A DNA stretch of 64,000 nucleotides from Acidiferrobacter thiooxydans (lineage in GTDB: Bacteria > Pseudomonadota > Gammaproteobacteria > Acidiferrobacterales > Acidiferrobacteraceae), in NCBI RefSeq assembly GCF_003333315.1, contig NZ_PSYR01000001.1:1142501-1206500 (forward strand), given 5' to 3'. How positions within the stretch are numbered: position 1 is the first letter of the stretch; the number at the start of each line of letters is the position of its first letter. The translations under genes were made by a program, and so were the position numbers. Below the pieces are notes generated by a model that saw nothing but the letters and a program-made list of their open reading frames with translations, was not told the origin of the DNA and searched no databases. This document shows, piece after piece, positions 6,340 to 8,388 of this stretch.

Positions 6340-6605
6340 CGCAGGCCGCGGCGGTGCGTTGGCGTTGTCGACGCGGGCTCCTCGAGCTCGATCTGGCGCT
6401 TGGACGTTTCCTGGAAGACGGCTATGGGCGGCTGTCGCCACCTGAGCGCGCCTTGTTCGAGGAACTCCTCACGGAGCACGACGCCGACCTCTGGGCATGG
6501 ATGCAGGGGGCGCCGGCGCCGGCGCGATATGCCGCCATCCTCAAATCCTTTACACTGCCACGCTGCGACCCAAACGACGACCGCTTGTCAACTACCCCGC
6601 CCTAA
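6336..6605 (+). CDS. sdhE: FAD assembly factor SdhE, C-terminus altered by insertion
   Basis: This 89-residue SdhE/YgfY protein has the conserved RWRCRRGLLELDLALGRFL at residues 8-26, containing the RGxxELD signature needed to promote covalent FAD attachment to SdhA, and LLTEHDADLWAWMQG at about residues 47-61. The core domain is complete. The last dozen residues (about 77-89) are unlike other family members. They are encoded where the HEARO/iscB element begins, and the stop TAA at 6603-6605 lies inside the element's left-end hairpin. The tail was therefore probably rewritten by the insertion; function is likely kept. Confidence 0.88.
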   Translation: MTQAAAVRWRCRRGLLELDLALGRFLEDGYGRLSPPERALFEELLTEHDADLWAWMQGAPAPARYAAILKSFTLPRCDPNDDRLSTTPP

Positions 6606-6951
6606 AGGACGGAGCTTGGAGGTAACAACCGAAAAGTTGGGTTGACCAGGGAGCACAGGATGGTTCTGTGCAGACGTCAGCAATAGGTCGTTACGACCCA
6701 CTCCGGGATGCTTCCTCAGTCCCGGACACTGGAAGGGTGGGATCATGCTGCGGAAAGGTAAAGCCGCGAAGGTTCCATCCGCTCTCGCGTAGGCCATACC
6801 CCCACACAAAGGGGGTTGTCCACGGCCCACAGGCCATAGCGGCCTGCAATGCAATGAGAGAGGAGCCGGTTGCTGACCATCCCGAGGGGAGAGACCCGTT
6901 AAGGGTCTGTCACTAGCGCCCGTAAGGGCGGTTTTTTAGAACGAGGACTGT
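6588..6951 (+). ncRNA. omegaRNA (HEARO RNA) of IscB
   Basis: This non-coding region immediately upstream of iscB holds consecutive stem-loops: 6597-6612 (one mismatch), ACCCCC/GGGGGT at 6798-6816, CAGGCC-ATAGC-GGCCTG at about 6830-6846, AGACCC-GTTA-AGGGTCT at about 6893-6906, and CGCCC-GTAA-GGGCG at 6917-6930 followed by six T. IscB nucleases use an omegaRNA transcribed from exactly this position, with the guide at its 5' end drawn from DNA flanking the left end. The guide would therefore come from the 3' end of sdhE. No separate promoter is evident, so it may be processed from the sdh transcript. The final hairpin and T-run could act as a partial terminator before iscB. Confidence 0.8.
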
Positions 6952-8388
6952 ATGGCGGTATTGGTGTTAGATCGCAGAAAGAAACCACTGATGCCGTGCG
7001 CGGCCCGCCGCGCCCGGCTGCTGCTGGCACGCGGTCGGGCGCGGGTGCATCGGATGGTGCCGTTTACGATCCGGTTGGTGGACCGGCTGCAGGAAAACTC
7101 TACCCTGCAGCCGGTGCGGTTGAAGCTGGACCCAGGCAGCAAGACCACGGGCCTGGCCTTAGTGCGGGAGCAAGACATCACGGACACAACGAGGGAAGAA
7201 TCTGTCCGTACCCTCACGGTGCTGATGTTGCTGGAATTGCAGCACCGAGGTTCCGTGATCCGCGACCGGCTCACGGCCCGGCGCGCGTTCCGCCGGCGCC
7301 GTCGCGGGAACTTGCGGTATCGTCCCGCCCGCTTCGACAACCGGGCGAAACCGGCGGGTTGGTTGGCGCCCAGCCTGCGCCATCGGGTCGATACGACGAT
7401 AGCGTGGGTGGCACGTCTTAGCCGACTGGCGCCGGTAACATCCCTGTCGCAGGAACTCGTGCGGTTTGACATGCAGCAGATGCAAAACCCGGAAATATCC
7501 GGCGCCGAATACCAGCAAGGCACGCTCTTTGGGTGCGAGATCCGCGAGTACCTGCTGGAAAAGTGGGGCCGGAAATGCGCTTACTGCGGGGCAGAAAACG
7601 CGCCCCTGGAAATAGACCACATTCACCCGAAGTCCCTGGGAGGCAGTGACCGGGTGAGCAACCTCACCATCGCCTGTCACGATTGCAACCAGGCCAAGGG
7701 CAATAGCCTGCCGGAACAGTTCCTGTCGAAACAGCCGGAACGGGCCAAGAAGATACTGGCCCAGGCCAAGGCGCCATTGCGCGACGCGGCGGCCGTAAAC
7801 AGCACTCGCTGGGCCTTGTGCCAACGCCTCAAGGAAACAGGCCCGGAGGTGGAGGTCGCGAGCGGCGGCCGGACGAAATGGAACCGCCACCGCCTGCATA
7901 TCCCTAAGACCCATAGCCTCGATGCCGCCTGTGTCGGACACGTCGATGCCATCCGCCGCTGGCAGCAACCGGTCCTGACCATCAAAGCCACAGGCCGCGG
8001 CAGTTACCAGCGCACGCGTCTCACACGCCACGGTTTCCCCCGCGGATATTTGACCCGCAACAAAAGCGCCTTTGGGTTCCAGACCGGGGACCTGGTGAAG
8101 GCGGTGGTGACGACGGGCACAAAAGCCGGCACCTATCTCGGCCGCGTCGCCATCCGCGCCAGCGGCAGTTTCAATATTCAGACCGGGAGCAGACTGATAC
8201 AAGGCATCCATCACCGATTCTGCAAGTTGATACAGCGGGCGGACGGCTATGGATATTCGTGGACGAAGAGAGCTTTGAACAAAGGAGATGCGGGAATGGG
8301 GCGGTCTGCGACCGCCACGCTCTCCCTCCCCGGCATGATGGGCCATGCGGCCCACAATGATGCCGGGGTTTCCCGCGCAACTGGATGA
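6952..8388 (+). CDS. iscB: IscB RNA-guided nuclease (RuvC-HNH)
   Basis: This 478-residue protein has the IscB domain order. The PLMP domain is at residues 1-50 ([10 protein letters not shown]). RuvC-I is [13 protein letters not shown] with Asp60. An Arg-rich bridge helix runs about 104-121 ([14 protein letters not shown]). RuvC-II has Glu168 (SQELVRFD). The HNH domain is at about 205-258, with CAYC at 209-212, IDHIHPKS with Asp222-His223, Asn237 and CHDC at 242-245. RuvC-III is HSLDA with His321 and Asp324, followed by a C-terminal TAM-interacting region. Every catalytic residue I can check is present, so a programmable DNA double-strand nuclease is expected; IscB is the ancestor-like relative of Cas9. 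GAGG precedes the ATG. The last 30 or so residues read through the right-end hairpins and the stop overlaps the serS start, suggesting extension of the frame by insertion. Confidence 0.93.
8300..8368 (+). repeat. right-end hairpins of the iscB element
   Basis: Two perfect stems lie in the 3' end of iscB. The first is GGCGGTC-TGC-GACCGCC at 8300-8316. The second is a longer two-part stem, CCCCGGCAT at 8328-8336 pairing with ATGCCGGGG at 8360-8368, with an inner GGGCC/GGCCC stem and a 4-base loop. Subterminal hairpins are the recognition structures of IS200/IS605-type single-strand transposition, so these may let a Y1 transposase mobilise the element. The larger hairpin plus TTT could also slow transcription into serS. 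Confidence 0.6.

Follow-up and report, generated by a model that had tools for sequence, protein, structure and literature searches.

The stretch of DNA analysed here (the window) comprises 64,000 nucleotides (nt) of Acidiferrobacter thiooxydans, and coordinates given without a genome or contig label refer to it; the genome that was searched (G000) comprises 3.25 Mb in four contigs. Between the genes sdhE and serS there is an element that carries an omegaRNA and a gene for IscB, an RNA-guided nuclease and an ancestor of Cas9. The initial annotation of the window had already placed such an element between these two genes, and the matches of its neighbours to Pfam Sdh5 and TIGR00414 agree with this position (Table 1). 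What it missed is the main point, namely that the site of insertion is the start codon of serS and that IscB takes its stop codon from this site. We think it likely that the locus holds an IscB element of the IS200/IS605 type that is seated at a start codon, with both of its ends apparently fitted to restore translation of the gene that it has entered.

Table 1. Features of the sdhE-serS locus in the window.
Feature	Coordinates	Strand	Remarks
sdhE	6336..6605	+	Pfam Sdh5; native part up to 6586 (..DDRL), then five element-derived codons
Predicted 16-nt guide segment	6571..6586	+	Last sdhE codons, immediately 5' of the omegaRNA scaffold
Whole IscB element	6587..8384	+	1798 bp; omegaRNA and iscB without its own stop codon
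OmegaRNA scaffold, HEARO RF02033	6587..6897	+	82.2 bits, E 1.8e-16
TAA now ending sdhE	6603..6605	+	Follows the LSTTPP codons, of which the last five (STTPP) are element-encoded
iscB	6952..8388	+	Uninterrupted open reading frame, 478 aa
Shine-Dalgarno-like AAAGGAG	8281..8287	+	5' of the right-end stem
Right-end stem, 5' arm GCGGGAA	8290..8296	+	Covariation among relatives
Genus-specific palindromic module, about 21 bp	8340..8361	+	Loop of the terminal hairpin; adds seven in-frame iscB codons relative to the three nearest copies
Right-end stem, 3' arm TTCCCGC	8370..8376	+	8 nt before the start codon
Target ATGA	8385..8388	+	Start of serS and stop of iscB, which overlap by 4 nt; predicted target-adjacent motif of the empty site
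serS, serine-tRNA ligase	8385..9662	+	TIGR00414, 511 bits; start codon abutted by the element

Insertion point and borrowed stop codon

In the nearest congener (G005), whose serS is 95% identical, sdhE and serS are adjacent and there is no insert. When the window flanks are joined (6586|8385), the result equals the sdhE-serS junction of this congener (locus L157), scattered substitutions aside, and there is no target duplication. At that junction sdhE ends with ..PNDDRL* in the TGA of an ATGA, and serS begins at its ATG, such that the two genes overlap by 4 nt. The element is thus inserted exactly between the last codon of the upstream gene and the ATGA.

The TGA that ends iscB (8386-8388) is target-site DNA and not part of the element. 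The bounds of 6588-8388 given earlier are corrected to 6587-8384. The iscB gene of the window re-forms the 4-nt overlap that is present between sdhE and serS in the congener, and it stands to serS in the same-direction stop-start overlap by which translationally coupled pairs are recognized.

There are four full-length intact copies of iscB in this genome, namely the window copy and three others at 78% identity. None of these four open reading frames (ORFs) has its own stop codon; each runs through the right-end hairpin of its element and ends in the TGA of the target. The 4-nt overlaps are formed with serS, radA, efp (the latter two named by eye) and an uncertain ORF of 95 codons, and a further copy, in congener G012, overlaps by the same 4 nt with an apparent accA (also named by eye).

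Equally clean empty sites are present in G005 for the radA and efp copies. Congener loci were also fetched for these genes (13 full matches for radA and 14 for efp), and ten of each were read; nine of the ten radA loci show an upstream gene that overlaps radA by ATGA or GTGA. At the serS site, no IscB element lies directly before serS in the 13 congeners read. In nine of these, at least 60 open codons lead into the TGA of the site, where one of the nine (L167) is not sdhE-like, and the frame is shorter in the other four.

An intact IscB with its omegaRNA

The iscB product matches the NCBIfam model guided_IscB (NF040563) with 450.1 bits, compared with a cut-off of 175, and in Pfam it matches RRXRR (231 bits) and HNH, both above cut-off. 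It carries the PLMP/RRXRR domain, the bridge helix, RuvC I-III and an HNH domain with its catalytic residues, as is typical of the family. In an alignment of 25 sequences D60, E168, H223, N237 and D324 are invariant and H321 is nearly so, which bears out the earlier statement that the protein is intact. The solved structures that are closest by sequence are IscB chains, and a fold search with a predicted model returns IscB at the top, then IsrB and then Cas9, with a model of moderate quality (mean predicted local distance difference test score, pLDDT, of 70.7) and low global template modelling scores (about 0.2-0.4). The protein is 64% identical over the aligned part to an IscB of Allochromatium warmingii (L117), a species from which a protein is reported to have been characterized.

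A match to the HEARO model of Rfam (RF02033) is found directly upstream of the iscB ORF. The structured RNA that had been proposed for this position is supported by the E-value of this match, although its score lies 0.8 bits below the gathering score of 83, because of which only a tRNA, and no HEARO RNA, appears when the gathering threshold is applied. There are six HEARO matches in a search of the whole genome, five of them at the iscB loci and one at an internally deleted copy; the window copy scores 68.9 bits and the others 149.2, 107.6, 83.1, 82.3 and 31.2, such that three of the six reach the gathering score. These protein and RNA matches give good support to the prediction that the locus encodes both a complete RNA-guided nuclease and the guide RNA that belongs to it. 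The guide would occupy the 16 nt that precede the scaffold, as deduced from the known layout of IscB systems, and this segment has one mismatch to the empty site of G005. Between the omegaRNA and iscB, a consensus scan finds a terminator-like hairpin with a T-rich tail (6917-6930, + strand), which could define the 3' end of the omegaRNA and restrict expression of iscB.

Residues 432-476 of IscB have pLDDT values below 50 and are predicted to be disordered, and the residues beyond about 438 are encoded by the right end of the element, and thus represent read-through. In the five pairs of sequences that were compared, the proportion of synonymous differences (pS) in this tail is 0.17-0.28, versus 0.49-0.58 in the IscB core. 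With so few synonymous changes, the tail appears to be constrained as DNA or RNA rather than as a peptide. A functional peptide in the tail is disfavoured by these few changes and by the low pLDDT values.

As the initial annotation had stated, there is no transposase gene inside the element: none of the 12 genomic matches to PF01797 (Y1 transposase) above the Pfam cut-off falls within it. Its terminal hairpins, the fixed flanking tetranucleotide and the lack of target duplication are traits of the IS200/IS605 family. Because there is no TnpA inside, it is a non-autonomous mobile element of the IS605 type and not a complete IS605, and an autonomous element is ruled out.

Copies, remnants and transposases in the genome

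In addition to the four intact copies, there are a fifth iscB copy at 60% identity and various fragments, so the element is not solitary, as had been supposed. Across the IscB core, the intact copies exhibit ratios of nonsynonymous to synonymous change (dN/dS) of about 0.13-0.18 in the five pairs calculated, which indicates purifying selection between them. IscB may have undergone a recent expansion in congener G006, a genome with five IscB matches of at least 159 bits, four of them above the cut-off of 175 and some cut by contig ends.

The fifth copy (L067, G000:C2:647311-648857), which has the top HEARO score (149.2 bits), has D60 changed to N and E168 changed to M in the alignment. It is a natural RuvC-dead IscB that retains HNH, has its own TAA stop codon and adjoins GTGA. 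The deleted copy (L068, G000:C1:1365143-1365841) is an element of only 699 bp with a HEARO score of 31.2 bits. Its deletion is in frame, and an ORF of 109 aa from the iscB start still reaches the ATGA overlap. A remnant right end of another IscB element lies in the window itself (56198-56390, - strand), with its junction at 56201. A 297-aa ORF starts from the ATGA there, and 37 codons of the former iscB frame remain open up to and into this overlap. There is also a fragment that resembles parts of the omegaRNA (L030, G000:C1:127999-128095, - strand), beside a left-end-like motif, GTCAACTACCCC.

The 12 PF01797 matches show that Y1 transposases are encoded elsewhere in the genome, and a fragment of one is located in the window (36166-36318, + strand; 23.8 bits). 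A specific helper TnpA was not found; the TnpA elements that were read (L010, L011 and L012) carry a terminal hairpin similar in style to that of the IscB elements, and they adjoin GTCA or ATCA and not RTGA (both by eye). Two of these (L010 and L011; G000:C2:1062729 and 1693987) have the same PF01797 score of 154 bits and an IscB-like downstream hairpin beside GTCA, and they are possible relatives of a trans-acting transposase.

A census of related loci

The arrangement was examined in 85 loci, comprising the best 80 relatives from a scan of GTDB genome contigs and the five copies of this genome. Right junctions were located by a pattern, in which a CGCG-like end behind a hairpin-like stretch is followed after 5-11 nt by ATGA, GTGA or TTGA; they were set by hand for L080, L089, L096, L103, L106 and L107, and L142 was set to none. 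A junction is recognizable in 76 of the 85 loci, the nine without one being L084, L086, L098, L102, L109, L115, L135, L142 and L145. There are 73 representatives with ATGA, two with TTGA and one with GTGA, a count that covers only junctions that such a pattern can find. Left ends were found by pattern in 79 loci, and both ends in 72. Three of the 76 (L067, L106 and L151) were excluded from the list used for alignment.

An ORF of at least 100 codons begins at the junction tetranucleotide in 61 of the 76 loci, versus 26.8% of 8750 control RTGA sites from the same loci. Among 20 downstream proteins chosen at random from these 61, 12 match NCBIfam models at E <= 1e-15, including those for ThiF/MoeB-type proteins, GalE, OsmC, HisH and PurM, and eight of these 12 matches begin within the first 10 residues. 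A crude gene caller, which counts stop-start overlaps as 'within genes', classes 34 of the 72 sites as start-like, 10 as otherwise intergenic and 28 as lying within genes. The corresponding numbers for the other RTGA sites in the same flanks are 179, 943 and 6141.

The iscB gene overlaps its downstream neighbour by 4 nt in 20 of the 76 loci and by 1 nt (TGATG) in 10, and it ends earlier in 46. A tree of the 76 proteins requires 11 changes of the 4-nt state, which is clustered (none of 500 shuffles is as low), and nine changes of the 1-nt state; both overlap states therefore recur and are not the mark of a single clade. At the right end, 54 of the 76 loci have 30 or more open codons in the frame that leads into the overlap, compared with 15 and 35 for the other two frames. 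Little weight is given to these open-frame counts, because the loci are related.

Structure of the two ends

At the left end, 72 of 79 loci have a stop codon (45 TGA and 27 TAA) that follows exactly five codons when read in frame with the target TGA, whereas the other two frames have a stop within six codons in only 2 and 2 of the 79. In 19 of 72 rebuilt empty sites, the target TGA is the precise stop codon of an upstream ORF that is 80 codons or longer, versus eight and nine for the other frames.

The flank from which the guide is formed was also scored for pairing with the anti-Shine-Dalgarno sequence between positions -18 and -4. The mean energy is -4.5 kcal/mol for the empty start, -1.4 for the occupied one and -2.2 for a control stretch, and energies of -4.4 kcal/mol or lower are reached by 30 empty, one occupied and 13 control sequences, of 72 each. 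This flank often holds the Shine-Dalgarno (SD) sequence of the target gene.

At the right end, the terminal hairpins are enclosed by a stem, in a stable fold (z -3.05). Arms of at least 6 bp are present in 55 of the 76 loci, compared with 21.2 expected by shuffling. Of the 63 loci whose arm measures 5 bp or more, 54 have an SD-like motif next to the 5' arm, versus 3.8% of background 10-mers, and the spacing from the stem to the start codon is 8, 9 or 10 nt in 63 of 67 loci. One pair of the stem could be scored without the use of complementarity, in 52 of the 76 loci. It is a Watson-Crick pair in 42 of these 52 (25 G-C, 10 A-T and 7 T-A), where the mean after shuffling is 18.6 and none of 10,000 shuffles is as high.

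The palindromic module in the hairpin loop of the window element, GGCCATNNGGCCYRCAATG, occurs at 13 places in this genome and at 37 in G005, and it is present in 10 of 14 genomes of the genus. It is found in tandem in places, with a spacing of 21 bp, and a control with the reversed pattern never matched. Other IS-like elements (TnpB by eye) also carry this module in their terminal hairpin loops.

Proposed mechanism

A Y1 TnpA acting in trans presumably mobilizes the element, which would insert without duplication immediately 5' of an ATGA (in the window, the ATGA with which serS begins). The sequence that flanks the omegaRNA upstream would then serve as the guide and the ATGA as the predicted target-adjacent motif (TAM). 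Alleles without the element would be cut by the ribonucleoprotein and the occupied one spared, and in this way the element would be kept in the population. A homing-like way of life, which had been suggested from the sequence of this locus, is plausible given the empty site, the dispersed copies and the dN/dS values.

Such an insertion would separate serS from its native translation start context, which we read as one that depends on the overlap with sdhE. The two ends appear fitted to compensate for this. The left end supplies a stop codon to the interrupted upstream frame within six codons, and the right end leaves the iscB frame open, such that IscB terminates in the target TGA and the ATGA overlap is restored. 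Ribosomes that finish IscB at ATGA or TGATG might then reinitiate on the downstream gene, and the right-end stem might draw the SD-like motif close to the start codon; together, the overlap and the right-end structure would drive translation of serS. In the loci where iscB stops early, the SD-like motif and stem of the right end are the candidate initiation site. Since the ATGA sets which way the element faces, one seated at a start codon would run in the same direction as the host gene and could be co-transcribed with it.

One possibility is that the IscB elements of this clade are, in general, translation-stitching transposons. They would land on start codons, between the SD sequence (if there is one) and the start, often in ATGA overlaps, and would bring a stop codon at the left end and an initiation region at the right end, which would consist of a structured split SD, of an overlap through the borrowed stop, or of the two combined. 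The guide with which the nuclease polices the empty allele would be the native initiation region that the insertion displaced, and essential genes such as serS and efp would be safe harbours. We hold this wider proposal in even balance. If the restoration of translation is real, it would account for how these elements, which have no transposase of their own, land in essential operons without killing the cell and persist there, and also for their constant co-directionality with the host gene and for a TAM that is a start codon. For annotators, it would mean that such IscB proteins end in a tail produced by reading through the end of a transposon.

A number of observations weigh against the proposed restoration of translation. 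The 46 early stops lie 2 to 99 nt before the junction, mostly too far for reinitiation, and the tail frame is not kept in this group (phases 19, 15 and 12); a copy in congener G006 (L196) likewise has an iscB that stops before its junction. The 1-nt overlap state is no less scattered on the tree than shuffled labels (158 of 500 as low). The left-end stop is located within a conserved RNA loop, and its frame may therefore be inherited, in which case it could be a one-in-three accident of the ancestor. A clear SD sequence is evident at only 30 of the 72 empty starts, and serS is among those without one (0.4 kcal/mol). In some relatives the SD-like motif or the stem is missing; among the 52 stem pairs scored, 10 are G-T or mismatched, and 24 of the 76 loci are unscorable. 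The role of the stem and of its constant spacing might lie in TnpA action on single-stranded DNA and not at the ribosome. In addition, the omegaRNA of the window falls short of the Rfam gathering score by the small margin given above. Finally, kinship among the loci, which were sampled as the top hits to this clade, means that counts per locus exaggerate how independent they are and that the figures apply to this clade.

Alternative explanations

The main rival is an account by survivorship only, wherein TnpA needs just RTGA, insertions within genes are purged by selection and those at start codons survive, the stem is a recognition structure for TnpA, and any effect on translation is incidental. 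A fixed junction tetranucleotide without target duplication is what IS200/IS605 chemistry produces, and a stem at a fixed distance from the target, a tail constrained as DNA or RNA (by the pS values above) and a tail frame that is not kept where iscB stops early are all in keeping with it. However, purging predicts that about 16% of non-genic RTGA sites would be starts, and 34 of 44 are seen, albeit with crude gene calling; the loss of within-gene insertions alone is therefore insufficient. Survivorship also leaves unexplained the SD-like motif in 54 of 63 loci, the exact 4-nt and 1-nt overlaps in 30 of 76, and the frame that stays open in the deleted copy and in the remnant. Moreover, the TnpA elements L010, L011 and L012 have the similar hairpin but no such outer stem or SD sequence (by eye). 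The SD-like motif, the exact overlaps and the kept frame speak against survivorship, and we consider it a rather unlikely explanation.

It is distinctly improbable that the element is dead, in which case an old insertion would have left behind an IscB that looks intact but is inactive. The lack of an internal transposase would fit such a relic, as would one paralogue without its RuvC residues and a weak scan that found no sigma-70-like promoter in 3600-10400, but the catalytic residues are intact, dN/dS is far below 1, and the nearest congener does not have the element. Domestication, with a host function for IscB at this locus such as regulation of the sdhE-serS operon, is hardly credible and, like the notion of a solitary element, can be set aside: although the catalytic residues are intact, purifying selection acts between copies and the insertion lies in an operon whose gene order is kept among congeners, the serS sites of the 13 congeners are empty of IscB elements, IscB exceeds the family cut-off in only two of 15 relatives (some of which are incomplete drafts), and several copies occupy unrelated loci of the same genome.

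Relation to known systems

We return to start-codon seating with restored translation as the likely reading. The type of element is already known, and its seating at start codons is the unexpected part. The window element shares with IscB/HEARO systems of the OMEGA group, such as OgeuIscB (PDB 7xht, 8csz), its domains, its catalytic residues, the HEARO-type RNA upstream and a guide derived from the flank. It differs in that seating at a start codon and a borrowed stop codon are shown for the present elements. HEARO elements are reported to insert upstream of ATGA or GTGA (Weinberg 2009). No report of start-codon seating or translational repair by IscB/HEARO elements was found in the literature searched, which covers the central papers of the field only in part.

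Few HEARO nucleases occur with TnpA (Goltsman 2022, PMC9755519), and the window element likewise has no TnpA gene. The TAM of DtIsrB is NTGA (PMC9581776), which is the same tetranucleotide class as the junction of the window element. However, IsrB lacks HNH whereas the IscB of the window has it, and the TAM of the latter is predicted only, from the empty site.

Overlaps of the types ATGA and TGATG couple translation, and a spacing of about 20 nt nearly abolishes coupling (PMC6728339, PMC10666635). Coupled resident gene pairs have the same -4 and -1 overlaps as iscB and its downstream gene (PMC6728339, PMC10666635). In those pairs both partners are resident genes, whereas here the upstream partner is a transposon ORF without its own stop codon. 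IStrons, in which a group I intron is combined with an insertion sequence, are likewise akin to IS605/IS607 and render their insertion harmless at the level of RNA (PMC4227781). IStrons splice out, whereas the window element is proposed to re-join translation without splicing. If this is true, there would be a second way, besides IStron splicing, for an IS605-type element to spare the gene that it enters.

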